A DNA stretch of 64,000 nt from Branchiostoma floridae (taxonomy: Eukaryota > Chordata > Leptocardii > Amphioxiformes > Branchiostomatidae). The notes under the pieces were generated by a model that was not told the origin of the DNA, searched no databases, and worked only from the letters and a program-made list of their open reading frames with translations. Below, in pieces: positions 1-51,998 of the stretch. The stretch lies in assembly GCF_000003815.2 (NCBI RefSeq), contig NC_049980.1, positions 27,654,762 through 27,718,761 of the forward strand. The letters run 5' to 3'. Every line of letters begins with the position of its first letter. The stretch's first letter is position 1. The position numbers and the translations under genes are program-made.

Positions 1-285
1 CTCGTCCACCTAACACAATGCACATTGGCTTCAGTCAATTGCTCATACAGGCAGTCAATATACAATTGGGACGTAAACAGGGAACGATATCGACTTCCAA
101 CAACCCATTGATGACGTTACATGTCTAAAGCGATTCGGTCGCATAATTGAAGAGGTCTCCAGTCGAAAATGCCGTTGTGTCTAATATTATTTTCAGTCAA
201 AAACCATTTTATTTCTCTTTGATAAACAATCATTGCCAATTCAGATGTGATTGTCAACCATTGATAAAAGAACAAAGTGTCTTAC

Positions 286-1066
286 AACTCTGTCGTCGAC
301 TTCCCTCGTGGCGAAGTAATCCGCCAGTTCCAGGTACTTCAGCCGCTTGTCCTCCGCGGACGGCAGGTACCTGGCCTCCACAGCCTGGCGGAGATGGTCG
401 TGAAAGAAGTTCAGGATGCCGTTCCGATTGATCAGGTTGTCGTCCAAGGAGAGGTAGAAGGGAGACCAGACAACGGATGGTACCTGTCAGGCAAAAGATA
501 AGCATTATGCTTACAACAAAGCTTACGTTACAGCAACAGTAGAACGATTATCTGTCAATGGAACATTCCAATGCACAAGTTTAGAATAAAAGTTTAATGC
601 CAAGAGCCCTTCAAATAACTGCTAAGAGCACTTCACGTTGTTATTTGTGACGCAGCAAAACAATGTATTCAATATCATGTTAACTGCTTGATTATTACTT
701 ATTGTAGGTAAACAAAGTAGTACATACGTCCAGAAGGGTGACCATTTCTTCCTCTGATAACCCACGATGGGAACACCAGATGGCAGACGTGGAAAGCCGA
801 ACAAGGTCTTTTCTGTATAAAAGATTTCAACATGTTATGTGGCGTTTAGATAATGGCATAAGGACAACTAGATCAGTAATAAGATATGTCAATGAAATGT
901 TAGATAGACATGCAATCTTGACAATCAATTACCTGGTGTTGACTCCTGTCTCAAAGTCATTCTCAAGGCGTTCCAAGATCTTGCCGAAAAGGACGCCGGG
1001 ATTCTCCGCCTCAAGATAATGCTTTATCCGGGTGGTCACCGTCTCAAACTCACCGTACAAGCGCAT
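286..1066 (-). other. Post-NTPase helical / winged-helix-like region, exons 26-28
   Basis: This part contains VLFGKILERLENDF, then HRGLSEEEMVTLLD (residues close to the G-L-S-E-x-E-L-x-x-L-L motif of NPHP3-type proteins) and WSPFYLSLDDNLINRNGIL followed by FFHDHLRQAVEARYLP. In relatives this linker leads to TPR or WD40 arrays. Bases 1-285 hold no further exon that I can support, so the next exon is outside the window. Confidence 0.75.
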
Positions 1067-4000
1067 CTGCGATATCAAAGGAATTCTATAGTCAACGTTT
1101 CTAGATGTTAAAGAGCAGGACGGAGAAATCGTAGAGACACTTTGGATTTGAACTGATGAGAAGTTCATTGCAAGTACAGTTGAGTACTCTGGTGACTAGC
1201 ATGAATGTTTGAACTTCATTGCTCCACAATCATGTATGGCAACAGATCAAACGACAATATAACAAGGCTGATCTTTGTAGCACTGGATTTTATGGCTACC
1301 AGTACATGAGTCAATTGATCATCAAGTATGGATTATGTGGTCTCACTTTTGGAATAAGAAAATAAAGAAATTGACCTACTATTTTGGCGGATATAGGTGT
1401 TCCGGGACATGCTGAAAGTACATAGAAAATACTGTGTACCAGAGTTGTGTACCAAACGTACCTCATCTAACAAGGCCTTCAGGTACAGCGGGTTGTTGGT
1501 CTGCGGAGCGTCAAGGATGAGCTGTTTCTGCTCTTCTGACAGCGTCTTGGTGTACATGTCCTCCAGGTACCCCTTGATGATAGCAGACTTCTCCTCGGGT
1601 TGCAGAGGCTGCACAGCAAAAGTTTCCCATCCACTCGCAGAGGCAGCCTCCATCGCCTGATGACCAATGAAGAATATATTTAGTTACTTTTCCGTACTCT
1701 CATGCCGTGCGGTTAAGACATGAAAATATAGCATATCATATGCATGATTCGATACATTAACAAGAAAACAAATAAAGCATTGAAACTCACCCTGCCCGGT
1801 AAGGTGGAGAGCAGCATGCTGACGCCAGGTGGCGTTTCTTTCGGGATCCACAACAAGTCGTGCTCATCACCTGAATAATGAGAAGTCAATACATGAAAAC
1901 CGTGTCTGATGCACACTGAATGTAGTCTTGTTAGCACTGGTAGTGAAGGAAATTTAGGTTAATCTAGATCCACCACATGCATAAACTGCGTAAACAAATT
2001 TCAATCCCAACCTACGTATTACGGATGCAAACATCATATCAGTGTGACATGATCTCAAATTCATATTTTACTTAACAACATAATTGCAAAATACCACAAG
2101 CCTTATCTACCTAAAACAAGATAATGTGTAGTATGGGATGATAATTTCTACAATCAATCATTGCTTTTATATTAAGCTTTTACAATCATTGGAGGAATTT
2201 CCAACTTCTAGTCTCATAATCTTTGATGTTTCTTATCTACGCCTACGTATGGCATGCGGGGGTTGTGACCTGTCATTACGTACTTTAACTTGCTCTTTAC
2301 TCTGGTTCTGTAACAGCTCCGAGTCATACCTTCCCCGACCAGTGCCGTGCCGCTGTCTAGCTGGTTCAGGGCGTCCATGACTATGAGGACCCTGCCCATT
2401 ATCCCGGCCATCCGTAACCACATTGGCAGGGACCGGACCAGGATCGTGTCAGACGTCGGCACAGTCATGGACAGGTTGAAGAAGGCTTTCAGCTCTTCCA
2501 TCAGCCTGAAACACAAGTGCATAGTCCAATTACCCTTGTTTGTGGTGGTCAACATTACATGTCTACTATGTGCCTTTCATCTTTACTGTTCTTCCCGTTG
2601 CAAGCCTATTTTGTTACCAATAATGCTGTGGCCACATTTTCAAGCTAGGGCCCGACCAGGAAGTTTGCGCAAACGGATCCGGAAATTAAAGTTTTTTTAA
2701 ACATTATCTGTGTTTTGCTGTAATTTTGTATGTACGTTCCGTTCCCGAAAGCTGCCCAGCCGGGATCCGGTTTGTAAGTGCGACTACAGCTAGCGTAAGC
2801 TCTGCCTACCAAATTCTAGTGTGTGGTATTGTAAAATGCATTAAAGGTAACTCGTGCCGAAACTAAAATGTCACAAAACTAATTTATCAAAGTTGGATGC
2901 AGTACCTTCTGACCAGAGTCACATGGTTGGAACTCTCGGCAGAACTCCCGATGAAGTGGACGAAGACGAAGTGATCAGGGTGCGCCTGCTCGTATTTGGA
3001 GACCCAGTTCGCCACCAGGGCAGACTTGCCTGACCCAGACTCACCAACTAGGACCTGTTTCGGGACAGACCGATGTCTCAGTGTTAACTGCTTCAATATT
3101 CCCCATTGCTGCTATAAATCTGTTATGTACGACGCGCACCAAGGGTGGAACTCATTATTTAAATCAATTCACTGACTGTGAATCACTGATGTTGTCATCG
3201 AAGAAGGCATTGCCCGATTTTTTCAGATATATATAATCATTGACAGAGCATCTTCAAATAGTGTATCAATTTACGCTTTTACGAGTAATTTGTTGTCTTT
3301 TCATACTTACATTTCAGCATGCAAATCTAATCATAAAGCCAAGGGTATACAAATTCAATTTAGGTTACAGCAATGTCGCAATGATATCGCCGTCTAGGGG
3401 AATGGGCCCTTAGGACCGTATAACACTCACCAGAGGAGTAGACTTGTTCCCCGCCATGAAGGCGTCGATCTTGTCAAAGTACTCCTGCCTGCCGATGTAC
3501 ACGCGCCTGCGCGCTTCGGCAAACGCCATGTGGTGCTCCCGCTCCCGCTGCATGGGGGTCAGCTCTGTTCCCAGCGGGAAATCTTCATCCACGCACCTTT
3601 GGAGGTCCTACAAAACGGAACAAAGCTGCAATCATCGCCATGAGCAAGGATGCGGTATAGTTAATCTCCCGAGCAACCTTCGTAACCGCTGCTTCGCCTA
3701 TTGAGTCAGTGAACTGTGAAGTCAAGCTTGCCTAAGCTTAATGTTTCTGACTTAGGGAGAAGAGATGCTGCTAAAGGTATAGCTATGGGCCACTCATCAT
3801 CTTAATGATTGTAACATCAGGCCCTACGAGCTTGGTTTAGAAAAAATGAAGGAATACTTGGTCACCTTTACAAGTAACGAAAGTAGCATTACATATAGAA
3901 TAGGTGGACCTATTTGGCATCGTCGGCAGATTTGGCATCGTCATCATTTTCGTTGCCCCGGTTCATACTTAACTTAGTGATCGATGCTTCCCTTTGGGCC

Positions 4001-7000
4001 AGACAGCAACAGTGGAAGTGAGAGTGTGTAAAAGAGTATTACCTCCATAATGAGAGTACAGGCGTCTTCTTTATCCTTGTAGTTCCTGACGTTCATCCCT
4101 GCATCTAATACAGCGTTTCGCAGTTTGTACTGGTGTTGATAGTGCCAGTCACTCTCCGACAGGAAAACCTGTGAAGGGCGCGAGAAATTTTAGCTGCGTC
4201 AGAATTGCCTGTGTAACACTTACGTTACAGTATGACGATTTTTCCAACGCTTTGAAAGAATTTTTCGTGTCAGGTTACATCTTGTTTGTATATTGTCTTT
4301 AGCAATACCCAAGAAAGAAAAATTCAGAAGAAATTCAGAGAATTTTCCTAAAAGGAATAAGTGATGAATCATCACACATGGCAAGATCATTATGGCTCTT
4401 GCAAATTCATGCCCGAGATCCAGGGCAAATTGCAAATGGTGCAAACGAAGAATTAAAAAAAAACATTGATGAATTAAAGTTACAAGCTATTCTTAATCTA
4501 AAACTAATGTTAGAAGCATATATTATATCTAGCTGAGTCATTCTTTTTTAACAAATCTTTATGAGACACACCTGTATGTCGTCAGGGCTGACTGTGCTCG
4601 TCTCCGTTTTGACGGGGTCTCGCATGTAGAAGAAACAGCGGTGCCGAACCTCGTCAGGATTGTTCAGCGCTGCGTGTTGGATCTCCAGCTAATGTCAAAC
4701 ATAATCAGTGGAATTCGGGACAAATGTCATACAAATATCATCAGGTAGTACACTAAAATCAAAAGCCATCATCAAGACAAAGATTGCAAGGTCAGATGTT
4801 TTAGATAACAAGGTAAGCGGAACTTCAAAGCAGCAAATCTTCCGAAGAGTCAATAGATGGCTGAGGAGAGAACAGCTAGCGTGGACAACGTCGACGTTCA
4901 TATAACACAGGCCGAAGAAGGCGAGGCTATCAAATGAATACATGAAACGTAGGAGTGATGAAGACGTGCTTCATCTTAGAGATGGAAATAATATCTACAA
5001 CAACTTGAAGAGTACAAGGGTCGATAGCACCACCCTGTCTCACCTGTGTGACACTTGTGTCGAACCGGTAGTCATCGATCCACTTCAGGTCGTCATTGTG
5101 TTTGATGGCGTAATCAAAACTGGCGTTCAGCAACTTGTCTGGTTCGTCCTTCTTCTGACTCCAGCCGAACCTCTCCCCCATCATACAGATGAAGTACGGG
5201 CGACATCGGTCCACCTGTTAGGGGAATAAGAAACTGTTGTCAATATGTTCAGGTTAAAGCATTACTTACTTACTTATCATTGCTATAACGTTTGGTAATT
5301 TGATCATTTTTCAATCATTGTGAGAAGATAAACGTCGGAAGCAAAATTTTGATACCAGTTCCCTACCTCCTTGAGACAGATTGAGATGGTCCGACCGTCA
5401 TCTGACTGTTCCTTAGTGATGCCCCAGCGAAGGTCCACGTACGTGAAGAAGACGGAACGTTCGGCACACAGACGGTTCAGTTCACGGAACGTCTTCTTAA
5501 TGAGGTACTCTCTCTCACCCTTAAAGTCTCTATTAACATAGAAAAAGTGTGGTTGCTTATCTGTACGTCTTATCAAGATTTAGATGCAAGCTTAGATGGC
5601 TTTTAATGAAGAAGTTGAAGAAGTTTATTTGTAAGTTCGTGCCCGAGGGCTAATTGCAAGTACATGGTATACACATAGTGACAATGGACAGTCATAAACA
5701 ATATTCTAATCTAATAGTAGTATTGGCTAATAAGCATAGCATTGCCGCAACGAGAGCCATTATTGCTTGACATGTAAAAGTATCGACTTTTTAGTGAACT
5801 GTAGAGAAATCTGTCGATACCACACGTCTTATTGTAATGTGCTATTAAACGGCTTACAGGTTCGGTAACTCACTTGAATGTACTGGAGACAAAAACTCTG
5901 ATCTCTCTCTGCTTCGGCTTCTCTGACCGTCGTACGCGTGTAGTAGTATTTTCTTCTTTATCATTCTCAACGCTGTCTGTATATTAGATATGAGAATGTC
6001 GTATAAGTGGGGAAGTTGTAAAAGTTTGCATTTGAAATTCAAAGACCATCTTTTCGTCTTCCTACAGCACCAATGATACAATGCTACATGAACATACAAC
6101 AGGCAATGCATTATGTATTATAATCAGTACTTCAGCATGTCATAAACATTGATAACAACCAGATTTGATACAAGTAGGGTTGACACTGAAATCTTGACAA
6201 TTCACAATATGGTACAATTCAACTAACGAAGTGAAATTTTAACTTCACTGCTCTAAACGACGGCTCCATGCACCAGGCAATGGCCAATATGACCGACTTG
6301 TGGAATTTTCCACGACAACATCCGCGACGATCTAGGTACGATTTTGCTCTCCGTGCATCATGTACTGTACATTGTATAACGTGTAACGTGCTATCGCCAC
6401 AACATGCACCTGCATCCTTCACCACCACCACCTCAAACATACGGACCTCTTTTACCTTTATGTTTTCCCCCTTGTTCCATTGACGGGAGGGGATCCTCCA
6501 TAGGTCGGGCTTTAAATCATTCCATGAAATGGTGAGAATTAAAAAACACAATATTTTATTGGTAATCAACCAGACAAAGGGCCTTTATGTTGGCGTTTCT
6601 AGTGGGAAAATGCGGAAACTAAAAAAAAGGACATAAATTTTGCTAGGTATTAGCAGTCCACTTGGAGATTTCAGCCTTACGCTTTAAAAGGTTATAACGT
6701 CGTAACATGCCCTGGATTACTAAGTGTATTAGTTATGCATCCACTCGGTCTTAAACATAAGATACATGTAACGTTATATCCTTGATTTAGTTAAAGAAAA
6801 CCAACACTTTAACTCTCAAATGTCTTGCTCATCCAAATGTCAAGTCAAAGTCAATGTCAAATTAAAAGCGTTACCTTCGCTGCTGTCTTGTGCCCAGAGC
6901 TCGGCGTTCTCCGTCAGCACTTTCTGCACGACCTTGTCCCTCACGGCTGCCTGCTGGGTCCTCTCCTCTTCCGTCACGCTCTCGGGTATGACGTCAGCAA

Positions 7001-10000
7001 ACGCGTCATCCTCCGCCGCGGTTGCTTCTCTCCTCACCCGCACGAAGGCGTTGGACATCCGGGCACCATAATGACCGCCCCAGTGCTTGTCATCTTTACC
7101 TGGTCAACATGAGTGAAAAGGTTTTGACCATAACCATTGAGTACATGTACGCAACTGGTTATTTTACATTGTTGCAAAAACATGCGCCTCAAAAGATCCC
7201 AGCCCTACGTTTTAAAGGTGCTGTGCTGTATGACCAATGAAGTCAGGAAGGAAAGTTGTTGTTTCTTCAATTCTAAGTCACTTAGAGCGGCGAAGGGCCT
7301 CTCGTGTCCCAAGTTTCTGTGTCGGTGACAGAAATGTGAGAGATTGTATGTAAAACTAAAGTAGAGGAGAACTGACATACCTGATGATTGCACCCCGACC
7401 AGTCTGACTCCTGTCCCATAGTCAGTAAATGTGACCTTCTCTTCGTGCCACTGTCCGGAGTACAGGTTTCCCTTCTCTCCACTGCTAAACCTGAAAAAAA
7501 AGAAATGCACGATGTGGGTATGGATGGTCTGGATCCATCTGTGTAACGGTACCTATCGATGCATGTTAATAATTATTTCATTGTATGTCAACGTTTAGTA
7601 CCCTGGTTATCCTAAGCAGGCATTTACAACCGATAATCTGAATTTGAATATAGACTATCCATAACAGTCGGCTGGACGGGTCATTGACCTTTCATTACCT
7701 TTTGATGACCTCTCCGTCATACGTCATCAGCGTGACTTCTAGGGTGTAGTAGCCTCCTCCACAGACGCCTTGGGTGTACCATTCTGACACCTGCGGGGGA
7801 AGGGCGAAAAGGCAAAGTTATAAATTCTTACCTTTTCGGCAACCAGTTTTACTTTTTCCCACAGCACATTGAACAAGTATCTACTATACTTGCCATGTTT
7901 TTCTCACTGACGGCAAAATATTCAGATGATAGTGGCTAAAAAAACTTACTGACGAAATGTCCGCTATAATTCGTGTCTAATCCGTTAGACCAATCCCTAT
8001 CGTAAGAACAAACCTGGATCTCAGGAGCCGAGTCAAGATGCTCCTCGGAAAACGTCTTGGTCAGATCAACCTCCTGGTACTTTGAGCAGCGCATATGTGA
8101 CGTCACAAAGCCTACAACAAGGAAAATAATGCAGCTATCGCCATTTTGCCTCTTTAGAAAGCTTCAGTCAAACTCACGATTCCTGGACGATACATGTATC
8201 ATATGATGTATATACAATTGTGCATGCAAATTAACATGGAAATTTTGTACGGGCAAAACAGGCTTGAAAAGTTGTCTGAAAAAAAAAGGAATTGTTATCT
8301 AAACAGCTGCATGTAGCACGCCAGCATTATCGGTATGTGAGACATAAAATGTGGTGACGTACATTTCTCTGTGCCATGTCCTCCTTCGATGACGTTCCAG
8401 TCGCCCCCTATGTTCCAGTGAGACATGTTCCCCAACTGTAAAGGCAGAAAATGTAAGTAAGTTTCCATGGCGACAATACGCGAACGCTGTGCAGTCTTTC
8501 AATTATCCAAGGGTCATATATTGCTCTACCTAAATTTGCATTCAAAAATGTATTGGCTAACTTCGCTCATGACAGTACCAGTCTCCAACTATTTGGTGAA
8601 ATGAATAACGATGGACAATAATCGTCGCACGACTATATATCTGTTGTCTGTCTAAAGTTGACCTAAGCAGGTCGGCGAGACAAAAATGCCGAATTCCGAA
8701 TACTTTCCGATCGACCGCCCAAACGATCCTCCTGAGCAACATATCTACTACGAGATTTGGCATATCCATGATCTCTGTGTAACAATAGAAAGCTCCTAAA
8801 CCTCTAGCTTCATGTACTTGTTTACTCCACTATAGTTTGGATTTCGGTAGTTCTCCTGCCGCACCTGTCCGCTGGCGTTCTCCAGGAGGTTTGCGGACCA
8901 GCCCGCGATCTGCATCTTCTTCTTCTCCAGACTGTCCGGCAGGGGCGTGGCCTCCAGACCAAGCTGGGAACAGTAGGCAGGGGAAAATACGTTATTTCGG
9001 GATATGAAGATCTTCCTATTTTACATAAGCAAATTGGCCAGCAAGCTAAAAACAGATAAGAATTTGTACTTTTGAAAAGAATCAAAATGGACACTGATTT
9101 ATTTCATTGTCAGTTTGCTTCAACACGCGACGAATCTTCGACTCGGTATATACTCATTGAGACTTTACATATCCATATTCAGCTGCAGTTTCCTTCGTCG
9201 CCGCCAGGAAGCCATAGATTTCCCTTATACATCAGTGCGCATGTGTGACACCCCACCTTCGCTCTCTCGTGATGTTCTCTCTTGACATCTTCTTGCGATT
9301 GTTCCGGTTTGACGTACGAGGCGTCGCAGATGGAGAAGCCGCACAGGTAGGAGGGATACGCCGTGAACTCCAGGGAACCGCCAGACACGGCCACGGGCGT
9401 GGAGAACGTGTGAGCCGTGTAGCCTGGAGAGGCCTCCGTCTGCGCAGGTTTGAAATTCACCCTTTTCTACAGAAACGGAAGTGGGACGAAAGACAAGAAC
9501 AATTTAAACCCCGTTTTCACGCGCTGTATACGCAAATTTATACATAATCTGTTAACATACAAAGTGTTATAGTTGTGATTTAGCACAGATTCTGCTACCT
9601 TTCTATTATGCTGAATGTTTCATAGTCCCAGCCAATTGGCCAACCAAAGGGTGCAATTATTCATAACTTGTTGGTTTATTGTAGTTAGAATCAGTACAAA
9701 ATATTTCCTGTACAAAATACTACGTGACCTCGCCAGAACTTTGTCGATATCAAGCAAAGGAACAAACCTGTCCGTTGATGACGATATGTCCTCCTCCTCC
9801 CACATAGTGAAGTGTGAGGGTGTGGTTTCCATTAGGCAAGTCCGCTACCTACAGGAGTGAACGGGTGAACAATGGAATGGGTGGTAACGCTGCTATTCGT
9901 AAGTCGTACAAAACGCCCCCCCCCCCGGTTTTTTTTTACCATGTCAGTAAAGCACTCTGTTCTGCTAATGTTTCGAGCACTATCCCTTGACCTCAGTGTG

Positions 10001-13000
10001 GGTCGTCGGGGCACCATGACTGCATCCGCTATTCTTCTCCACCTGTCTCTTTCCTCCGTCCGTAAATGTTAATATTACAGTATTACACCTTCCGAAGGCC
10101 ATGATTTGAGGACAGAACATGCATAGGTATGAACTACGTATAACATAATGTACAGATTTTACTTACGTTGTAGGTGACCCTGTTCTCATCCTCTGTCTGT
10201 GCGCTGTGATTGCGGGCAGTCCCATAGATGAAACCATCGTAGGTTCCACACAGCAGCTGCGGCATGGCACTGGTGTGTTTGATGAGTCCCAGAGTTTTAG
10301 ACTGCGGACCTGGAATCGTTTAGTTTACATGCAAGACGTCACTTCTACCGAGTAATGTCTTCAAAAGCGTTGTTCTAATTATATGATTACTTGTAAACGG
10401 ACTTATGAATACACTGATTACAACAATACACGGGATAACTCATCAGGGACTATTTTCAATAGGCCTTGACAAAACAGAAGTAGATACTTTTGCACAATTG
10501 AAAGTTAAGGTTAAGGTCAAAGAATGGTGTATTTCTCATTTTCCAAAGTAGTACAGTAACTATCGTATAAGTGAGTTTTATGTAGTGACATTCTTACACA
10601 AACTGTTAAACAATCAAACCAGCAGGTGCTTGTGAAACAATAGTTGATACAGAAAGCATGCCTCACCCGTCTCATAGTTGTGGTAGAGACGATGTTCGCT
10701 CAGGTACACGATGCTGTCCAGTGCCTGGTACGACGGACCGGCGGTGTTCAGGGCGAACAGGACACCCTTCGGCTGGACCACGTGTTGGCACGGAGAGCCC
10801 TCCAGCTCCAGCAGACGCTTCTGGCCGTCTTTTGAAAAAAGAACACAACAACTAGGCTTAACAAATACCAAAACGTTCAAATCCACTTTGAGATACATAT
10901 TTAGCATAAAGTGGTTAGATTGTTTGTGTTCAAAACTTTTCTTCTCAGCTTGCTCTCAAATAAACTTCGTACATTCAATAGTCCATGGGTAAGGGTTTGT
11001 AATAAAAAGCCCCTTCAAAAACACTCACTTTGATCATTCCTAATGGCGAACACCCTGACCAGACGTAATCCTGCAGTGATCTCGCCTTCAGCCCACCGCC
11101 TCATGAACGCCATCCTCCCCGCTGCCACTGACACCAGGTCCGTGTCTTTCACCATGGCAACCGTCCTCTCGTTCACCTTGATGACGACATCAGCGGGAGC
11201 CGTCACCCATCCGCGGATCCCGTTACCGTCCACTGACACAACCCCGCCGACAGGGCTGCTGTCGATAGTTGCTAGGCAGCCATCTTGGTGGCAACGGCCT
11301 TTGGGGTCGGGCTCGTCTTCAGCGAGGTTCGACAAGATGGCGTACCGACAGGGTAGAGGGGGACCTTCCACGACAAGTGTCCCGTTCGTTATCGTAAATT
11401 TCCACTGATCCGCCGACTCAGACGATCCTTTTCCCGAGCTGCCTGCCACAAATGCGGCCTCCACATACTGATCCCCCTGTGTGATTATGGTCAGCACGTA
11501 CAAGGAGGCAGTCGTGGCGGTCTCGGTCCCGCTACTGCTGGAGCAGAGGACCAAGGCCGCTCCACAGTTCCGGCACTCCGACATCAGGACGGTCTGGGAA
11601 TCTCCTCGGTAAGCCTGTGTATGGCGAACCTTTGCTGCCCTGTCCTGACCGGGAGTCGGCACGAACGTGTCCCGGTTGTGGAAGAGGGCGTACCGGCTGC
11701 TCATCGGTCCTGCGGCCTGCAGGATCCCCTCGCCGTCCACAGAGAACTTCCACAGGTCCTCGCCGTGGTCGAACAGCTTCTTCGTCCGGAAGGTGTTTTC
11801 GTTATACCCTGAGCTGATCACGTACATACAGGAAACAACCTGAGAAATAAACTTTTTATTAGGGCATAGGTAACATGTGATTCAGTTGGTAGTGCAAAAG
11901 AAGACAATACCAACGGAAAATCACTCTATAATCCAGCATCTAGACGACAGTACCTAACAAAGATAGATCAACATAAAGAACACAAAGACGACGATTCACG
12001 GTGATGATTTATTAAATAACAGATAATAAAAACGATGACGAAACCCACGACTGGCAAAAGATAGTGTATGCTTTTGGTAACGTTTGACAATTTACAAAAC
12101 TTGTTCTAAGTAACCTTATAGTAAGATTATAGAAGTAATTGCAAGAATACACTGTCTCTTGATGTCACAGTGGTGCCTGTACCTTGGCAGTATCGACGCC
12201 AGGCACCACCCCGCTGCACATGAGGATAGACGTGCCCCCTCCGTTCCCGCCGTTGACGTTGAGGCGGAGTTTGCCGATCTCGCCCTGCTCCTCCGGGCCG
12301 TCCAGCACCACCCCGACCCCGCCGTGACCCCAGCGGGAGTCGTTAGACAGCAGACAGGCGAAGTTCGTTCCGAAAAGGCAGTCTACTAGTAGTCTGAAAT
12401 AAAGACATGGGTATCCATAAGAAAAATGATAACGTTATGCTATTTCCGTCTACATAAACATCGTAATTTGCGCTTGTAATTTGCGCAACAAGATTTTGAT
12501 AACCTCTGATCCTTATCAGCTTGTCAGAGTTTTACAGATCATGTGTATTTCTTATGTAATGTATTTCCGAAGGTATATCTTCTGAATGTGACACTTGATT
12601 TCGATGATATTTGGTATTTTTGTTGGTGTTCTTGACGTGACGTTGAGGTTTTTTTTTGGCTTTGGTACTGCAGCTGGACTTCATTTTTTAAATCTTTGGC
12701 CTTGGATATGCTGTGGCCTTGATCTTTGGTGACTCATAGCCTTTAGTGTAAGGTGGAAGTGGTGCAAGTTTAGGCCCTCTAGCAGCATGCTCTAGTCTAA
12801 AACTGGTTAGTGAGATATAGTTTTTTTATCCATGTTTACTTGTATAAGTAGTTACATATCTGATTTTCTCCTGACAAAAGGGATAAACTGAGACTGTACA
12901 TATCGGACATTTTCTTGTACTGCATACATACCTGCCGTCTTCGTCTGTCTTGATGCCATTCTCTGCTCCAAAATGGCCGCCGTGACTCTTCACCAAAGAC

Positions 13001-14272
13001 TTAGCCTCAACATGGTTACAGTCGAATCCAGAGCGAAGAAAGATTATCTGCAAAAATCAAAACAGTTGAAACTTGCTCGTGTCCATTGATGCTAGAAAAT
13101 GATGATGTATTAATAATGGATATTCCCTAGTTTTTCGGTGTAACATCTCAACTATGGCTGTTAACCGATTTTCTCGCATTTTAAGGATTGAAAACATTTG
13201 AAAAAGTGTGCTCATTCTAAAGTTTCGAAATCCAAGAGTATTAATAGTCTACTGTAGCCTCCTTCACAGGCTTCTAGGAGCAGCGGTATTTCATTATATG
13301 AGCCAGGTTCTCTTTACATGCATGATCATCGTCGTTGCCAACGTATAGCTCTAGAAGGCTGCGAATGAGTCTTAGTCTAGTAGTAGTACTGCACCGTGAG
13401 CTGTGGACGATTGATATCACGTTATTACCGCAACGTCGTCTGGATAAGAGGAGACAGACGATCAATATATCTGATACTACATGGCAAACAAAGATAGGGG
13501 TATATTTTACCTCAGTGGTAGAGTTGTCCTTATTGTTGTAGCTACATGACAGTAGCAGGAGAGACGCACACCCTCCGTACCCAGCGTTCACGTTAAAGTC
13601 CAGGCTGCAGAAGCAGCGTATGGGCCACTTGGCGTTGTTTTTCGACCTGATGCAGGCGATGTCCGCTACATGCGATGGCAAAAAAATCTTAGGTTATGTG
13701 ACATTGCAATTTTAGACTTCACATCCTCTGTAGAAAATCAGCGCCGACCCAATTACATAATCTGTATAACCACGCATAATTCATTTCATGTATTACATGT
13801 TTGGAACGCGACAGATAAATCTAAATATAGACTAAAGTAACGTTTAACCATTAGACAGTGAATGACATGTTTGACCCATTTAAGCAATACACTGCAATCT
13901 GCCTCTTAACGAATTCTTTCACTGTTTTATATGTTTGTCATTTACGTTATCTTATATTGCGAAGAAAGCTTTACCTGGCCGTTTGATTTCTGTTAGACCT
14001 GGAAGGTCATCTCCAGTAGAAAAGTCGTTTCCCGCATGGATGACGCGATGTTCTGATGACGTCACTTCCGCCTGTAAGCCATCCTCGGCAGCCTTCACGT
14101 GAGGGCTGATCTCTGCCATAGGCTTTGGCTTATCGTCTGGGTGTTCTTTTTGTATGGTCATCTGTGGGTCGTGGTCCGTCTTGCCGTTTCTGATGAGTGT
14201 TTCCTGTTGCTTGTTTTCCCGTGGCGTCAGGTGTGGCGGTGGGCCGGGGCCGTGAGAGGTGCCGCAACCCAT
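286..14272 (-). CDS. Multidomain FBA - DUF4062 - STAND NTPase protein, 5' 28 exons, open at the left edge
   Basis: I do not know a named orthologue. Coding exons in transcript order: 14272-13975, 13665-13511, 13047-12932, 12393-12183, 11839-11029, 10828-10667, 10309-10167, 9848-9768, 9466-9257, 8963-8865, 8435-8363, 8111-8014, 7790-7699, 7490-7381, 7099-6875, 5922-5874, 5529-5367, 5214-5044, 4688-4572, 4168-4043, 3607-3431, 3054-2906, 2505-2330, 1870-1791, 1656-1462, 1066-933, 812-728, 483-286. Every junction has GT-AG ends and matching phase, giving 1568 codons without a stop. Order of parts: MGCGTS start and Pro-rich segment (1-99), beta-rich repeats (about 100-530), a carbohydrate-binding-like region (531-729), FBA (about 745-908), DUF4062 (from about 967), STAND NTPase (P-loop at 1233-1240), helical region (to 1568). 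The C-terminal sensor repeats (TPR or WD40 in relatives such as NPHP3, TEP1, TTC41 and NWD1) must lie beyond position 1. The product is probably an intracellular, membrane-tethered signalling switch; this role is inferred. Confidence 0.85.
1462..3607 (-). other. STAND-type P-loop NTPase core, exons 21-25
   Basis: The Walker A loop is VLVGESGSGKSALVANW (residues 1230-1246 of the model). Walker B is RVLIVMDALNQLD, with the aspartate at 1323, separated from the P-loop as in NACHT/AAA_16 ATPases. A sensor-like strand VSMLLSTLP follows, then the helical segment AIIKGYLEDMYTKTLSEEQK. Key catalytic residues look intact, so the NTPase is probably active. Upstream YIGRQEYFDKIDAFM is the region that precedes the P-loop in NPHP3/TEP1-like proteins. 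Confidence 0.9.
5044..5922 (-). other. DUF4062 domain, exons 16-18
   Basis: The spliced reading gives QREIRVFVSSTFKDFKGERE, then TYVDLRWGIT and a CRPYFICMMGERFGW segment. This is the DUF4062 pattern found before the NACHT/STAND module of NPHP3, TEP1, TTC41 and NWD-type proteins. The link to the FBA domain is direct: donor at 6875 (phase 1) to acceptor at 5922 restores codon phase and reads SSEEKPKQREI without a break. The acceptor at 5922 has a weak pyrimidine tract, so this junction deserves transcript support. Confidence 0.87.
6875..8963 (-). other. F-box-associated (FBA) domain, exons 10-15
   Basis: Successive exons reproduce the FBA signature: WSANLLENASGQ, HWNIGGDWNVIEGG, SHMRCSKYQEVDL, HLDSAPEIQVSEWYTQ, CGGGYYTLEVTL, KVTFTDYGTGVRLVGVQSSG and KHWGGHYGARMSNAFVRV. 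In FBXO2, FBXO6, FBXO27 and NCCRP1 this fold is a ten-strand sandwich; in FBXO2 and FBXO6 it binds high-mannose N-glycans. No F-box precedes it, which is the NCCRP1 situation. After the last strand about 50 acidic linker residues lead directly into DUF4062. Confidence 0.88.
9257..10828 (-). other. Carbohydrate-binding-like beta-sandwich region of the FBA-STAND protein (exons 6-9)
   Basis: The segment includes GNHTLTLHYVGGGGHIVING, which resembles the G-x-Y-x-x-x-L-x-Y-A-x-G-x-G-x-x-x-V-x-V-N-G core of CBM6/malectin-type galactose-binding folds. Around it are GFIYGTARNHSAQTE and a Tyr/Cys-rich strand, YPSYLCGFSICDASY. The assignment as a glycan-binding sandwich rests on this resemblance only. 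The exons lie between the N-terminal repeats and the FBA domain in the same phase-consistent model. Confidence 0.4.
11029..13665 (-). other. Degenerate tandem beta-rich repeats of the FBA-STAND protein (exons 2-5)
   Basis: The four exons encode about three and a half copies of a unit of roughly 95 residues. Recurring marks are a YVISSGYNENTF-like opening, a W-K-F-(S/T)-(V/I)-x-x-G-x-L core (LWKFSVDGEGIL, QWKFTITNGTL), an R-Y-A-(L/I)-x-(H/S)-N turn, and a closing segment rich in Gly and Cys (KLRLNVNGGNGGGTS, FNVNAGYGGCASLLLL, ECRNCGAALVLC). The first exon carries only the closing half. I do not recognise the family; the pattern suggests small beta-sandwich or trefoil modules. The 811-base exon 11839-11029 holds two copies without an intron. 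Confidence 0.55.
13975..14272 (-). other. First coding exon with N-myristoylation-type start
   Basis: The first ATG reads M-G-C-G-T-S. Gly2 followed by Cys3 and Ser6 is the classical signal for N-myristoylation plus palmitoylation, so the protein is probably anchored to the inner face of a membrane. The rest of the exon is Gly/Pro-rich and then polar and charged, without a recognisable domain, and no F-box motif is seen. The exon ends in phase 1 at a good donor and joins the exon at 13665. A codon TTG lies three codons upstream in frame but is not a plausible start. Confidence 0.7.
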
Positions 14273-18033: not shown

Positions 18034-21000
18034 CTAACCAACGATAATGTCATTGAAGACATTAATGTTAAGAACCAAAGTGTCGTCGCCAGGCAACAGC
18101 TGGAAAGTCTTGGTTGCCATGTTAACACCGTGCGACTTGATCTGGATGTCGTAGTCGCCATGGAAAGCGCGGAAGTCGAACTCCTTGCCCTCCGGTGTCA
18201 GGGCGCCGTCCGTGAGGTGTAGGTTGGTGCGCCAGTCGTGGAAGACTAGTTGGTGCCAGCGGTGGCCTGCTTCGTTGATCTAATAACACATTAGCGGAGA
18301 AAGGTGAATATTCAGTTCTTTCTTAAATTTTTCTTAAAGTATCTCAGCTCTGTGTCAATGATGTTGTAGAAAAGCTTAGGCTTCCGGACAGACGAGTTTG
18401 TCAGAGGGTTGGTTGAGGGAAAGGGTGTCGGTAAACGCTTTAATTTTATTTCCGAAAAAAGCACATAACATCTTTATAATGCTACTAGTATTGTTTGTTA
18501 CCTCAAAGTTGTCTCCATCCACAAGCGAGGCGTGCGACCGCCAGTGGGTCTTGTTCCAGAAGCCCCAGAGAAGGACGCCCTCCACGGCCGGGTGGCTGAA
18601 GGCGACCCTGAGCGCGTCCTCCAGCCCGCCCGCCCGCTCGGACACGTCCGGCTCGTTCACGTCCAGCTCCGTCACCCAGATGGGCAGCCCGGCCGTGGCC
18701 ACTTTGTCCAGACGGCTCTGCAAAGATTGTCCAGTAAGTCCAGAACAAGTTTCAGTCCTATAAAATGCTGTCATTGCCAGGGTTCGCTGCTGACCTCCAA
18801 AAATAAACCCCAAAACAAGGCCACTCTGAGTCTCTAACTTCTGGGGTTCGTGCGCTTCACGCGCGCAAAGCTGCTACTTCGGGGTAATACGCTATCCCGG
18901 ATATTTCCGGGCGCGGCAGTTTAGTTAACACGTGCTACAAGACCATTGATGTATTCTCAAGTGACAAAAATACATTTATCAAATGGAGTTGTTCAGTTTA
19001 AGAGGAACTTTCAAGATTATCATGAATAGTCACTTTAATAACTAAAGCCACTTTCCAATGTAGGTAGAATATTGTGCTATTGCAAATCTAAACGATGCAT
19101 CATAGGTTACGAAGCTATGAAATGCCAACTACATCATTTTTAAGGATATGTACTTCATTTTCGCAGTTGGTTAGATAAGAGAACTTTTCTGCGTTAGAGG
19201 TTAGGCTCTTGATTAACCTTATTAGATAGTAAATTGTAATCACCTTCATCATGACAGGGTCCGGTCGTTTTTGGAAGTGACCCTGTACACCAACGCCCTC
19301 TACCGGCGCTCCGTTGTCCAGGAACTCTTGTATTTGATCCGCATACGCCTGAAGAGTTAACAAAGACAAACAATTAGGCTTGTTGTTGAAATATATTTAC
19401 AATAACGCCTTCATTGAAAACCACGTTGCAAAAAAATATACGTACCGTTAGTGTCAGTAGCCAGGATACCTTTCTCTGTAATTACCGCCGGCTCGACCTT
19501 TTCGCTTGCTTATCCCGAATTCTGGCCCTTATACCCCCTCCACAATTAGGCGATAATCGATTGGACGACGAGTCTGCGAGCTCAAAATTACGAGGAGGCA
19601 TGACCCTGACGGGAAGGGGGAAACTCTGCCATTTCTTTGTNNNNNNNNNNNNNNNNNNNNNNNNNNNNNNNNNNNNNNNNNNNNNNNNNNNNNNNNNNNN
19701 NNNNNNNNNNNNNNNNNNNNNNNNNNNNNNNNNNNNNNNNCATGCCTCCTCGGAATTTAGACCTCGCAGACTCGTCGTCCGATCGATTTTCGCCTAATGT
19801 GAGGGGGGTATAAGGGCCAGAATTCGGGATAATGTGAGGTGGGTATTCCACTAGAAGGCGATCGCGCTGCGACGAACTCGCTGACTCCAGTACTGAATTT
19901 GTGTAACCCTTTACTTCATAATAAGAATATCATATATTCATTTCCTGAATTCAGCCCTTCATTCTATTAGCAAGCCAATCCAGACTCCTTGAGAGCCAGC
20001 GATAACTACGGAGAATGGTATCCAGGCTATACAGTCATCTAGTATCGGAAGCTTTGGGACTGGCTTTTATGTCATACCTGTGACGCGAAAACGTTCGATA
20101 CGGGTGTTTCGGACCGGGTCATAACTTCCGTATCGCACAGGTTCGAAAGGCGTATAACACGGGCTCCATTCGAATAAATCGAGCTGTTTTGAGCGGGCCG
20201 AGTGCGGCGCCATCGAAAGTTCGAATACCTGATTCGGACGTTGGAACATTACTTTTTGTTCGAGGGCACCAAATTTATTCAACTTCTGCCGTCGGGCTAT
20301 CCGACCCACGGTCGGACTGGTACCTCGGGTGGTACGGAATGCACCGTGTTGTATTCCATATGTATAGAACAACTTGCGAGGGACGTAGGGCTGCAGATTA
20401 AGGATGTAAAGACGCTATGGGGGACAGAGATGTCTTGAGAGATGAGGGGCTGGAACTGGTCCGGGCAAGCCGCCCGTGATTTTAAAAGTACAATTTTCCT
20501 CACACCTGTGTGGACATGCCAGAGTTGATGATGTTGAAGTCGTTGAGGAACGGCACGACGTTCGGGTCGTTCTGCTTCACCCTGCGGAACATGTCGTACC
20601 GGATCTGCTTACTGCCCGTCCTCCGCTCAAAGAAGTTCCCGTGGAGCATCTCGTTGTTAACGTCCCAGTGAGCCACCCTGGACATGGGATGGTTCAGTCA
20701 CAGAGCTGAGTAAAGTTCAACTATGATTTTCAACACAAGAAATTTTGGACATACCCAAATATTTTCGATCGATCGCCAAGGAATGAACAACCTACTGCTC
20801 CTGGTACTTTACCTCATGTAGCAAGCACCCGTGACACAGTGAGCAATAGATCATAAGCAGAGCTGTTCGTTCTTCTATATTTTTCGTTGAAGAGATTGAT
20901 TAGTCACGTATATGCACAGTCAATAAATTTTTCATCTAACAGTGACTACTTTTGGTTAAAGATAAATACACATACGTCCAAATTTCGAAGCTATTTGTTC

Positions 21001-22029
21001 ATCTTGTTCACGGAGTGACCTAGCTTCTCGCGAGAGTTAAGAGAATTAGGACGAGACTTGCGTGGATGTTCTGCCCCTCACCTGCCTCCTTGCGGAGTAG
21101 GGGTAAGTATACTATATCTTTTTTTTTAATCACGGGCACTTTGCAACGTGCATTACGAACATGTGATGGGGTTTGGGTCCCTTAAATTTTTTTTCGACGA
21201 ACTGCGACGTTTTTAATGGCATGTCTATAAAGAGGACAAAGGAAAGTGAAGTAGATCACAACTAAAGGGGGTAGCTATTGTATTTTCATATCAGCATCCT
21301 CTCAAGCTACAAGCTACTGCCTTTCAAGCTATACTGTTAGTTCTCTCTAGATGTCAATGATCCCTACCTTCCTCTGAAGCGGCTTACGGCGTTGTCGATT
21401 CTGGAGTATAATTTCTGCTCGACATCGGCGTTAGAGTTGTACCTGAGCCAGTTGGGCACGTGATCGTCCACTGCCCAGGCCAAACAGTGACCGCGGATCT
21501 GAACACTGTAAAGAACGGTAAAGATTAAGTTAAAACCATAGCCTTTTGTGATGCTGCAGGGGCGGTGGGTTGTAATAGACATTGTGTAGAATACGGTCTT
21601 GAAAGGCGAAGCCCATCACTCTCCTCCTACTGCGCATTTTACAGACCGAAGTCAGTTGCCAATTTCACACCCGGGTGAAGTGAATACATTTGTATAAAGT
21701 GCCTTTCCTGGAATAGAATGCAAATGCACACTGTGTGCGGGGAATGCATGTAGCGGTAAGCAGATGTTTGAAGGGCTAGTTAATGTGTGCTTGATGTCAC
21801 CAAGATGACCACGTGACTTACCCTCGACTTTCCATCAGGTCAATAGCCGGATCAGCCTCGCTCCAGTCATGGACACCCTGTGTACAAAACAGCAGTGTCG
21901 TCAGGTTAACCGGTTGCATTGTTTTTAGCCGATATAGCAGTATGGGAATCAAAAGCGTGGGTTTTGAAAGAATTTCACGTGGTTGAGATAGTTTGTGCAT
22001 TTGTGTGTGTATGTATGTGTGTATGTGTA

Positions 22030-22068
<39 letters not shown>

Positions 22069-25000
22069 GTGTGTGTGTTTGTGTGTATGTGTTTGTGTGT
22101 ATGCGCGCTCGTGCGTGCATGTGCGTGAGCGTGTGTATGTGTGTGTGTATTTGTATGTATGCACGCGTGTGTGTTTGCAAAAGAAGTAAAAGCTGTTCAT
22201 CATCAGTCACCTCGATCGTCTCCACCGCTTTCCACTTCATCTTATTGCCGATGACGCCCCAGTTGAAGTTATCGAGGAAGTAGTCCGTGTACTTGGTGTT
22301 GGCTGGGAAACCCATGACATCGCCCTTCGCGATGTTCACCTTTGACCCGAAGGGAAAGTGGGCCTTTGTCTGGACTACCTGCAAACACATGCATGTCGTA
22401 TTTTTGATTCTTTCTCCGAAAAGGCTTTTTAAATGTTTGTAAGAGCTTTATTGGCAACAGAAAAGTACCTTAGAGAGTGAATGACCTTTCAATGGCATTG
22501 CTCTGCAATAGAAAACATTGTTGCAAATCGAACAAAGATGAATTAAAATAATCAGACTTCTTACCTGGACTTCCAGGTGGTCTACATTTGGCGTGTTGAC
22601 CCTGCAGAAATGTTGAGATTGCTTAGATGTTGACATGGTGAAAATAGAAATGTCAACAGATCAACGTGGTTCTCGGTTTTCCCTTTTACTGCTAGCCTAA
22701 TAATTTACAGCTCTGCTGCCATCACAATATTTATGTTTTAACTAATAAATATATCGTTCGTTCTGTAGTGTTTTTAGAGCTCTTAACAGTTGCTGGCCGC
22801 GGAGTAATTGGATTACACCACCTGGTTTCTTTTTATTCAGGTAAACTGTTCAACATTTGGCATTTTTTTTAAATTTTGGCGTATCATACCAGCTGATTAT
22901 CATAATACACTATAGGACCTGTCACATCTAACCTTTGTACATCTCGTGTTGTTTAAAACTATGAAACCAAGTCGAAATGTACATATGACCAACAATGGCA
23001 TCATAAATGACAAACAACACAGTACATCTACTCTGTGTTGATAAGCCTGTTACTCGAAGGTGTGGCTATTTCATGTTCTTTTCTGAGCTGGTACTTCATC
23101 AAGATTTGCATCACCTCAATGCCGTTTCTTGAATTCTTTTTAGGAATTGGTAATTGCACAATCGTAATTATGTAAAAACTTGTTGCTGAATTCTATGTGA
23201 AATACAAAAATTCCAAACCCAACACTACTTTTGTGTATTAGTCGCAATTTGACCAATCTTAAATCCTTTTCGTAATTATAAAGGCTCAAAGGGAGTCTGG
23301 TGGAGGCTGTATGTTGGCCTGTGTGTACCTTATCTTGACGTCCCGCTTCCTGATCTGCTCTATCCGTGCGTCAGCCTCGCTTCTCCAGCTGCTGTAGGGC
23401 GTGGCCGACACCTCGTGCAGAAACACGTCATCCACCAGCAGGGTCACTCCGGCAGGCGGGCCCGAGATGTAGAACTTCACTCTGTCTACTGCCTTAGTGT
23501 AGCCTGGGTGTGGGTTTAGGATAAGAATAAAGGGTATTCTAAGTATAAGATAGTGACATTCTCTCTATTTCAAATGATTTTCGTCTGCTATAGTAAGTGC
23601 AATACGGCTTCGCCACTGGTTATGTTTCTAGCAAAGCACACCGGCTATATGTGGCCCTCGGGCGTGTGTGTGTGTGCGTATGTGTGCATTTTTATACTAT
23701 TTCATCAAGCTCTTTGTGTAATATGGTATAGTGAATTTGAAGGCCTGTCATNNNNNNNNNNNNNNNNNNNNNNNNNNNNNNNNNNNNNNNNNNNNNNNNN
23801 NNNNNNNNNNNNNNNNNNNNNNNNNNNNNNNNNNNNNNNNNNNNNNNNNNNGTGCAATATGGTATAGTGAATTTGAAGGCCTGTGCATTTGACAAAGTAC
23901 ACTGGGTCAACACATCGCAAATTGATCTTATACGTACGGTCCATACACACGTCTCCCTCCATCTTTTTCCAGCCGTCCGCGCCGGAGATGAACGCCTTTG
24001 AAATGACGGAGTGTTCGGAGCTGCCATCTGAGTTAGAAAGGCAAATCATTTTAAATGTTTTGTGGAAGAACAGAGAATTTCGCAAAGAGACAAACAGCTA
24101 CATCAGCAGTACTAGCATCTTACGCAAGACATGTTACAGTTATAGCAACACTATATATTATTTTCCCCAACATCTTTCTAGTTGCCTGTCAAATGAGTAA
24201 CGGTTACATTGCGTATCTTTTACCTGGATGTCTAACGTTAACCTTCACAGATATATTATGTACTTCTTTTTCAGTCTGTTAGCACAAGATGGCTTTTCTC
24301 ACGACTTTGCATTCCGATAGTAAATTGACATATCCAACCTTACTGAGCAATATCTCCTTACCGTCAAAGTTGACGGCTAGTGAAGCCTTGGTGTCGTACT
24401 GCGTTGTGGTGTCACTGCCGAGCACCTTGAGATAAGCGTTGAACTGATAACACTGCCCGCCGCGTATTGACGACCCCCAGTACAGCTCCTGGTACGGACC
24501 TGCCCACACGGCGGATCTGCACAACAACGGTGAGGATTGATAATGTTTTATCTAAAATATAGCGTTCATGTATCTGTTGGTAATTACGTTGTACGTACGT
24601 TATGTATTCTGTTTTCACACTTTTCATACTCAGATTTCTTGTATTTTTATGGGAACGTTACTTAGGTTTTATCAAGACGTGTTAACGATGTTAAGCGTAT
24701 ATACATTGTGTCAGTTTTCGGTGCAATAACTAGAGAATCTCTGAATGGATTGTGATGGTATATAGTATTAGGGTAGGTATTTTCGTTAAAAAAGTTTAAG
24801 ATCAACTTTGGCTTCTTGTCACTGACCATGGTACTACAGCAGAGCACCTGGTTTTATATCTTTTGTCTTGGACATTTTTGTGCGTTTGTGACACCTAGTT
24901 GCACATAGTGTAGTCCCCGAGAGCCTTCTGTTTTGTTACTTGCCTGTCCTGAGCTAACATGGCTGCAGTTCCTGTATGTTGATCAGTGGTGTAGTGGAGT

Positions 25001-35720: not shown

Positions 35721-36173
35721 TACAGAGCCTTAAGCCGGAATTTAATTCTATTCGTAGACGTAAAGGCATAGTTTGAATATGTTCATATGTTCATGAATAG
35801 AATGTTCTTGGCTGCCACATTGATCCATGTGTGATATTTGATTGCCCCACATACCCAAGCCGCGGTATGCTCTGCAAATCGTCCTAGTCAGCGTCCGACC
35901 GGACCACATCACCCTATGACCTATATCTGCTATATGGGTCATTTCTGGTGGCTTCCTAGGCACTTATATGCACAGGGACACTCCTCTGTCCCTGTAATCG
36001 GCACCCAACCAATGACACGCCTTCCTGACCAAGAGATTGATAGGACGTGGTTACACCGATGAACTTAAACAAACTTTGAAGCCTACAAGTATTTAACCGC
36101 ATGTATAGCTCAGAATCCACTGCTTACAACTCCGTGGTAAGACTGCCCTGTTCGAAGCCCACAAGAGCACAGC
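35720..36173 (+). promoter_or_regulatory. Upstream region of IF3, conserved with IF5
   Basis: About 450 bases before the ATG match 58080-58532 closely, including GACCTATATCTGCTATATGG and GCACTTATATG. TATTTAA at 36090-36096 is a reasonable TATA-like box 78 bases before the start codon. The IF5 copy reads GCTTTAA at this place. Open frames here begin with non-ATG codons and are not genes. Confidence 0.5.
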
Positions 36174-39100
36174 ATGGCGACCCAGGCAATCCAAACTCTG
36201 CACGATGCCAAGATGACCCGAGCTGCTGAGAAGAAACAGCTCTCCGTCCTGAACGGCCGCTTTGCCTCCTACATCGAGAAGGTGCAGGCCCTGAACCAGA
36301 GCAATGCCGCCCTGGAGAGTCAGCTGCAGGCCGTCCAGGCCAAAGCATCTCCCGTAGACAAGGCGAAGTACGAGGGGATGCTGAGTGCGCTGCGCGCTCA
36401 GGTGGACGGGCTGTCTCAGCAGAAGGCTCAGGTGGAAGCTGAAAGGAACAGCTGGCAGTCGCAGGCGGAGGAATGGCAGGGGAAGTACGTTGATGATATG
36501 TTATTGCTGCTTTCATATGATCTTGTGAAAACTGCTTTCTATACCCCCTTCTTACCTCGGTCTCGTCGCGCTCTCTCTGCGACCTCAAATTGGTAAAAGC
36601 GCAGTGAGAGCGCGGTGGGATCGCAATTGACGCCATGGTTGCCATCATCTCCGTAACTGGGTTAAAAAATATCGCAGTGAGAGCGCGGAGGACGGCGAGC
36701 CAACGATGTGTGCAGAAAGATTACCAAGAGAGCGCGCAGCGAGCACAACATGTCTCAACAGTGGTTTATAATAATAAGTACCATTTTAACTAGAACGGCG
36801 CTCTCACCGCTTTCTCTGAACTCTCCCCTGTGGTTAGTGAAGAAGTATATTCGACACAGAGAGAACCTGGAGAAATGTTCAAAATGTGCCGATGTACAAA
36901 CAGAGATGGAATAACCAAGGTTTAAAAGCAAAGGCTTACCATTTCTCAACTTATTCTTGGACATGATGATATTAAAATCTCTTGTTCTTTAACTGTACAT
37001 TTGAATTTTTGAATTCCTATTTTCAATAGGTCGAAGTGTTTCAGTGTTCTATGATTTTCACAAATACGCGCTCTGTTGGTGCTCACAGCGCTCACTGCGC
37101 GCTCTCTTGGCGTTCATCGTTAAATCGCCGTCCTTGGCGCTCTCACGGCGACTGTTTTTACCCGGCGTAATTTCAAAACGGCGAACTGTACGATCATTCA
37201 ATTTGCAGGGACTGACATGGTCATCAAGTTTTATAATTCCGAAATCTTTATGACGTAAAATAACGTAATTATGATTTTTTGGGGCCAAAACGGGGAATTC
37301 CCATAATACTTAAATATTTCACACAAAAAAACTTCACAAGAAAGGTTTCTCATCAATATATGAGTGTTATAAGTCTTCTGTTGCCACAAGCTGACGCAAC
37401 GACGTCTAAATGATGTCATAAAATGACATCATCTGTATTTTAGCTACCCGCCATCTTGGATAGCGGAAATGGGATATTAGTAAAGTTACATGTCATCAAT
37501 GTTAACTCCCTCCTTATGTTATGTTATGGTAGCTCCTACAAAAACTTAGTTTGCTTGTGAATTGGTGACAGTAAAGCATAGTTAAACAATTTGGGTATAT
37601 CAAATTCATTAAACATGCATTTTTTCTGATTAATAGGTGCGAAGAGCAGTATACGGTGCGCTCAGGGCTGAAGGCCGAAATCGAGAGGAACAAAACGGTT
37701 AGTCTTCGTCCATTAGTTCTTTTGATAGAGTAAGAAATTTAAAAAAAATCTGTGCCCTCTTAGATTAACCTGTTACCTTTCAAACATGGAAAGTGGCACT
37801 TTAAGTCGTCTTATGTCTGATTGAATACAAATAACGAGGATCCGTTTGATTGACGTTATAGTTGCACGAGTGCAACATTGTAACGAAAAACGTAAAGTTG
37901 ACAGTCTGTTCCTTCAGTTATGAAGTGGGGGAACCGTAGCTTCTACACCAAATGTAACAATTAAAGATTCGTTACCGCCATACAGCCCGCAATATAATAA
38001 TTTTTGTACTTGAGTAACTGCTTTTGGGCGTATCTTCCGACCTTGATGTCAAACCTTCTATGACGTAACAGACCTTAATGTTTTAGGAACTGGCAATCAT
38101 CAACGCTGCTCGTTCGGGCTTCGAGAGCAGGCTGGTGGCCGCGCAGAAAGAGATCGAGGCCGTGAATACGACTCACTCTGCGGTAAGCACGTCCGTCTGC
38201 CTGTCTGTCTGTCTGTCTGTGATGCAAATTATTGATGTATGGCTCATTTTTTTTGAAATGTATTAATTGCTGTCGACTGCCTTTACGACTTGATCAGGAG
38301 CAAATTATAGGGAACATTACTGGTCCCTTCTGTTTTCTACAACGTGATATTTTACACAAGACTCACCACAATATTCATATTGGTTGATCGCCTGGACGTT
38401 TATTATAGCCATTGGTGGGATTTCACCCCCTAAAAATGGCTGTTGTCTGAGAAGACACAAAGAATTTGAATAGTAAACAAAACTGTAACAATTCAGTTCC
38501 CAAACTGCTTGTTCGGCAGGTGTAGCCAGCTACCCAGCCCTCTAATAGATCACGTCAGACCGCTACTGTCACTGATCTTGGAAGCTGTGTGAGGTTGTTT
38601 ATGCCTGTCTCCAAATCAGATAACAAACGTTCCCACCGCCAGTACGGTGGTTGTCACGGTTATATCATCCACGTATAAGACTAGAGATTGCCGTTTTTGT
38701 GACGTTTTGTGGTTTTCTGGCTTTCTAAAGAAAGAAGAAAGGGTCTTTGACTGCCATTTGTATCCCACATTGCTTAACTTAACAATATGTTGTGCAGAAG
38801 TTACTGTAACAAACGTTACCATTGTTAGATGCTTTCTAAACTCTCTATCTGACCTGGTTAAAAAATGTTGCCCACTTTTCAAATGTCTCTAGGGATGTCA
38901 ACTCATATCTAAATGATGTAACAAATTGTGTTAATCATATAGAAGAAAAAAAGGGTAAATTTATCTGTTTTAACAAAAGTTACCGTAACGTTTGTTACCT
39001 GCCATGTAATACATAACCAATCGGTAAGAAGAAATAAGTTTGGCTATTTTGGCATATTTGGATATGGTTGAAAGAGGAATTTTCCTGAAGAATCAAGTAG

Positions 39101-51890: not shown

Positions 51891-51998
51891 AGCAAGCAGT
51901 GCGCAGAAGCCTATTATTTACAGTCCCACACTAGCTACAAAAACACAGGACACTGCTTAGGCTGACTAGAATTGAATCCTATTAAAACAAGTGTCAAA

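Follow-up and report, generated by a model that had tools for sequence, protein, structure and literature searches.

The stretch of Branchiostoma floridae DNA analysed here, hereafter the window, comprises 64,000 nucleotides of contig NC_049980.1 (C2 in our contig numbering, positions 27654762-27718761), and its minus strand carries a gene that appears to encode a sensor-like animal protein with an unusual combination of parts: an F-box associated (FBA) domain, a TIR-like domain of the kind that cleaves NAD, and a switch of the NLR type. As rebuilt from the sequence, the gene has 35 phase-consistent exons with a coding sequence of 5847 nucleotides and a single terminal stop, specifying 1948 residues. 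It runs from an ATG at 14272 to a stop at -3071, that is, 3.07 kb past the left edge of the window; positions 1..14272 hold exons 1 to 28 and the first nine bases of exon 29, and the rest lies in the extended locus (L004). All 34 introns (median length 330.5 nucleotides) are bounded by GT-AG, the sites having been picked as such when the model was built. The preliminary description of this DNA had proposed a chain of 28 exons. Its splicing in frame and without a stop from 14272 to 286 was recovered, as were the boundaries it named at 14272, 7099, 6875, 5874 and 286, but 286 is not where the gene stops: a further seven exons continue to -3071 and add tetratricopeptide repeats (TPRs). The start codon sits in ACCATGG, a strong start context, and exon 1 (13975..14272) opens with MGCGTSHGPG.

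When the spliced protein was scanned against Pfam (24 families at E values up to 1), FBA, DUF4062, NACHT and TPR_12 exceeded their cut-offs. The FBA domain (PF04300, residues 754-908) reached 95.8 bits against a gathering cut-off of 32.4 (E 3.4e-27) and is encoded, together with a 52-residue linker, by exons 10 to 15 (6875..8963). A sub-threshold FBA score, which the preliminary description had named as refuting it, was thus not obtained. Exons 16 to 19 (4572..5976) encode DUF4062 (PF13271, residues 988-1073; 50.8 bits against 24.7, E 1.9e-13), and exons 21 to 25 (1462..3607) the NACHT NTPase, which starts at the end of exon 21 (PF05729, residues 1247-1414; 46.2 bits against 26.7, E 5.8e-12) and has an intact Walker A motif, GESGSGKS, at residues 1251-1258 (3022..3045). 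Exons 26 to 28 (286..1066) encode the region C-terminal of NACHT, after which come the TPRs, encoded for the most part beyond the window edge by exons 29 to 35 (TPR_12, E 1.3e-26). The FBA domain, DUF4062 and P-loop NTPase that had been proposed from the letters alone were thus all found, as was their NLR-like (STAND) arrangement with FBA on the N-terminal side of DUF4062-NACHT. Among the Pfam families listed for this protein there was no F-box N-terminal of the FBA domain, no TROVE, no WD40 and no leucine-rich repeat; the C-terminal repeats are TPRs, and in this the protein differs from classical NLRs. Judged from the sequence, the architecture seems real and unusual, the fusion itself being a splice prediction. 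Our preferred reading, which we consider about as likely to be right as wrong, is a single cytosolic STAND protein of 1948 residues, possibly N-acylated, with the order orphan region, FBA, DUF4062 NADase, NACHT and TPRs.

DUF4062 has been presented in a 2026 preprint as a family of TIR-like NADases (PMC13174449). According to this source, the activity of TEP1 requires E1008 and is lowered by alanine at R908 or R976, and among four human DUF4062 proteins tested, TEP1 alone was active. The TIR domain of TEP1 (structure 11gz) matched the window DUF4062 with an E value of 1e-15, query residues 1-169 aligning with residues 4-158 of the 220 in the chain. Since adding 893 to the chain index reproduces R908, R954, R976 and E1008, TEP1 numbering can be carried over to the alignment: E1008 falls opposite E1109 (codon at 4683..4685 of the minus strand), R976 opposite R1065, R954 opposite R1042 and R908 opposite K995. 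The catalytic glutamate and two of the three active-site arginines are therefore kept in the window protein, and the glutamate is also present in relatives on contigs C5 and C3 (SITELEI, SMTELEI). On this alignment NADase activity is plausible, and DUF4062 would likely be the effector enzyme. NLR effector domains usually sit where DUF4062 sits here. The preliminary description had treated DUF4062 as a neutral part of the switch, a view displaced by the preprint, which makes it a likely NADase effector. As a mechanism, such an effector is sounder than the glycan sensor first proposed. Scans of the DUF4062-NACHT part with PADLOC and NCBIfam gave weak matches only, in the P-loop portion. The likeness to TEP1 thus covers a TIR-like domain aligned over 169 residues, with its glutamate, and a NACHT that follows it; in contrast to TEP1, the window protein has TPRs instead of WD40, lacks TROVE and is preceded by the orphan region and the FBA domain. 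By eye, another locus of this genome, L008 on C3, looks TEP1-like. The window protein would also share the logic of a TIR-like NADase coupled to a sensor with bacterial Swarozyc (KpSwz) and with TIR-STAND defence proteins, although the sequence match to KpSwz had an E value of only 0.38; KpSwz carries a C-terminal portal-binding domain (PMC13174449).

The FBA domain is normally a sugar-binding part of ubiquitin ligases. Its structural relatives were FBXO2, FBXO6 and FBXO44 (eight distinct sequences), an FBXO2 structure matching with an E value of 8.7e-20. In Fbs1, Phe177, Tyr279 and Trp280 are reported to be essential for binding of the N-acetylglucosamine pair GlcNAc-GlcNAc (PMC4603797). The corresponding residues of the window protein are H792, H892 and W893, so that only the tryptophan is kept (H/H/W against F/Y/W); FBXO44/FBG3 has been reported not to bind sugar despite Tyr/Tyr/Trp. 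The window protein is further set apart from FBXO2, FBXO6 and FBXO44, and from NCCRP1, an FBA protein tied to the FBXO family (PMC3210139), by the missing F-box and by the joining of FBA to a STAND module. The only other FBA gene that we found in the genome (L030, C230:60000-67999) encodes, as judged by eye, an F-box-like segment followed by FBA, with the start MGATPSKKS and with Y, F and W at the pocket positions, and the window FBA thus looks like a diverged copy. Glycan binding by it would be possible but is not predicted. The classical chitobiose core is an improbable ligand for it; a glycoprotein that becomes accessible when organelles are damaged, or a partner protein, might take that role. 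Such damage is among the conceivable triggers because FBXO2 is reported to act on damaged lysosomes (PMC7605537).

Between exon 1 and the FBA domain, exons 2 to 9 (9257..13665, residues 100-729) encode a region of no known family. For residues 96-735 there was no Pfam match above a curated cut-off (one match, to Big_3_5, reached 17.5 bits against 35.5) and no match among PDB sequences; parts of the region likewise found nothing in PHROGs (residues 96-530), NCBIfam (exon 5) or phage records. Three stretches of about 80 residues could be aligned (alignment A1) with 22-26% identity to the first row. However, a BLAST comparison of the protein with itself gave no off-diagonal match, and since the call thus rests on inspection by eye and on A1, the repeats are tentative. 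A profile of A1 searched against the PDB gave matches of E 0.83 or worse throughout. An AlphaFold model computed for exon 5 by itself from the single sequence consisted mostly of strands with a mean predicted local distance difference test score of 35.2, and was not used. The glycan-recognition-type modules claimed for this part of the protein received no support from profiles, and the glycan-triggered receptor is a weak claim, as the FBA pocket keeps one of the three essential Fbs1 residues. We take the first six residues, MGCGTS, to be a start of the N-myristoylation or N-acylation type, and the highest mean hydropathy over 19 residues in the whole protein is 1.36, with no strongly hydrophobic segment; given these two features, the protein is likely to be cytosolic or membrane-tethered. 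Another DUF4062 gene, L025 on C11, has a first coding exon that opens with MGCGAS and continues into DUF4062, and the MGCGTS start of the window gene would for this reason suit a DUF4062 protein, in favour of a single gene. Motifs of this kind are common, however. The product of L025 (C11:7204358) is possibly N-acylated too.

We searched the whole genome (513,431,437 bases) for relatives. The DUF4062-NACHT search gave 20 matches of 31 scored, seven in the window gene and 13 at nine other loci, whose upstream DNA was covered to about 1.5 kb. The FBA family search gave three matching exons of four candidates, all in the gene on C230; it was not exhaustive, as the small FBA exons of the window gene itself escaped it. 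With the N-terminus plus FBA as query, all 15 sequences scored were matches (14 in the window gene, one on C230), and no second copy of the orphan region was found. A close paralogue of the window gene was not encountered in these searches. Its closest relative is a C5 gene (L007/L012/L046), presumably TTC41-like, which is collinear with it from DUF4062 through NACHT and the following region to VDELP, with 30-46% identity in the significant pieces and one weak TPR-like piece after VDELP. The C5 gene, though collinear, apparently begins close to its DUF4062, so that the window gene has the look of a DUF4062-NACHT-TPR protein extended by the FBA domain and orphan region. DUF4062-NACHT-TPR parts are also shared with NPHP3, which has an MG N-terminus and is not known to carry an FBA domain. 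Orthology with NPHP3 was considered and rejected, as TPR_NPHP3 (residues 1578-1751) scored 81 bits, under its cut-off of 100, and a locus on C13, probably the NPHP3 locus of this genome, reached 191.7 bits. As a separate observation, two DUF4062-NACHT genes on C5 (L021/L027 at 19.86 Mb and L024/L029 at 19.95 Mb) are separated by about 90 kb, one on each strand, and are near-identical in the aligned pieces, indicating a recent duplication; L022 and L023 (C3, 20.75 and 18.57 Mb) form a second close pair.

The weakest point of the model is the FBA-DUF4062 junction at intron 15 (5977..6874), and several observations, there and in the flanking parts, weigh against our preferred reading. At 898 nucleotides this intron is the longest of the 34 (the next has 539), its donor and acceptor rank eighth and sixth from the bottom, and exon 16 has a codon score of -0.22, the sole negative one among the 35 exons. 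The intron also contains an AATAAA at 6560; eight other AATAAA or ATTAAA sites are spread over six other introns. No paralogue with the FBA-DUF4062 architecture came out of the three family searches, and in the roughly 1.5 kb before the apparent start of the C5 gene, near which neither FBA nor orphan region was seen, a tblastn search with the whole window protein found nothing more. Taken together with the C5 start, the long intron, the poly(A)-like signal and the weak exon 16 would suit two adjacent genes, an upstream orphan-region-FBA gene that reaches no further than intron 15 and, downstream, a DUF4062-NACHT-TPR gene starting near the ATG at 6501 (MEDPLPSMEQGGKHK, then D...). For two genes there is also a 54-nucleotide stretch holding this ATG (6456..6509, score 0.12 per codon), whose phase-1 donor is compatible with exon 16; the same stretch, however, also reads as an in-frame internal exon of phase 1-1. 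It had no place in the earlier exon chain and might be a cassette exon, or else open a shorter isoform or a gene of its own. Exon 16 itself enters in phase 1 and contains no methionine, so some coding exon must precede DUF4062, which counts for one gene. Against two genes, the coding signal stops at the donor at 6875 and not at a stop codon: it falls from +0.81 per codon in the 52-codon FBA linker to -0.92 in the 11 codons past the donor, a drop that makes a read-through end of exon 15 unlikely and argues against a gene end there. About 340 nucleotides separate the read-through stop at 6840 from the ATG at 6501, and only about 55 separate the poly(A)-like signal from that ATG. The seven ATG-initiated reading frames of at least 15 codons in the gap between the FBA and DUF4062 exons scored between -0.10 and -0.81 per codon (66 such frames in other introns: mean -0.52, standard deviation 0.3, maximum 0.51). 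Decoys scored as high as the intron 15 sites in 2.2% of 681 GTs for the donor and 9.8% of 560 AGs for the acceptor. We are fairly confident that this is one gene, and regard two genes as unlikely.

On the side of the catalytic module, purified human NPHP3, NWD1 and NWD2, which are also DUF4062-NACHT proteins, showed no NADase activity (PMC13174449). Both Walker motifs had been called intact, which applies to Walker A; in Walker B (VMDALNQL) the first aspartate (D1341, 2373..2375) is kept but N/Q stands at the second acidic place, where NACHT domains usually have D/E and where the corresponding region of the C5 relative reads VLVLDGIDEL. ATP binding is likely on these motifs and hydrolysis uncertain. 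The altered Walker B and the inactive human proteins, together with the MG start shared with NPHP3 and the 81 bits of TPR_NPHP3, would fit one gene for a catalytically silent, NPHP3-like scaffold of ciliary or trafficking function, in which DUF4062 and NACHT serve as binding modules. We find this doubtful, as the catalytic glutamate and two active-site arginines are kept and TPR_NPHP3 stays below the cut-off that the C13 locus clearly passes. Under the preferred reading of one STAND protein with an active DUF4062, we infer a scheme in which FBA and DUF4062 would be fused in the mRNA and the NACHT-TPR part would hold the protein inactive at rest; a ligand recognized by the FBA domain and orphan region, by the TPRs or by both would release it, and NACHT oligomerisation would gather the DUF4062 domains and turn on NAD+ hydrolysis. 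A similar activation has been speculated for TEP1 (PMC13174449). As to the place of the sensor, the preliminary description had it shifted from the C-terminus to the N-terminus. Since DUF4062 stands at the usual effector place and the TPRs at the C-terminal place where STAND proteins usually carry their sensor, we instead regard FBA as an additional N-terminal module. The TPRs could then be the sensor, and the FBA domain and orphan region a localisation or substrate-recruiting module, as the degraded sugar pocket (H/H/W) would also suggest; we hold this as a tentative possibility, somewhat short of an even chance. That the FBA domain and the new module themselves sense an abnormal cytosolic ligand, for instance a glycoprotein laid bare by infection or by damage to organelles, and fire the DUF4062 NADase through NACHT seems to us improbable. 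If true, glycoprotein quality control would be wired to NAD+ depletion in a TIR-NLR-like cell-death sensor, and we know of no case in which the parts of such a sensor are combined.

Amphioxus has many NACHT domain combinations, about 21 (PMC2575513). Among the matches listed from PMC open-access text there was no description of an animal FBA protein with DUF4062 or NACHT, though the additional files of PMC2575513 may list this one; nothing contained both DUF4062 and F-box associated, and F-box associated occurred with NACHT only in a paper on oak. Among the matches listed for FBXO6, NLRs, glycans and cytosolic sensors, no title pointed to an FBA receptor. The window gene would place an FBA domain inside a STAND protein and, with its catalytic glutamate kept and an FBA domain and orphan region added at the N-terminus, would offer a tractable animal case for what activates DUF4062 NADases.

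Elsewhere in the window, two minus-strand open reading frames upstream of the gene (18376-18873 and 21818-22447) look by eye like parts of a GH10 (xylanase-like) animal gene. On the plus strand, three open reading frames similar to one another (36141-36596, 51966-52466 and 58500-58928) resemble, again by eye, the head and coil of intermediate filament proteins and are probably tandem paralogues.

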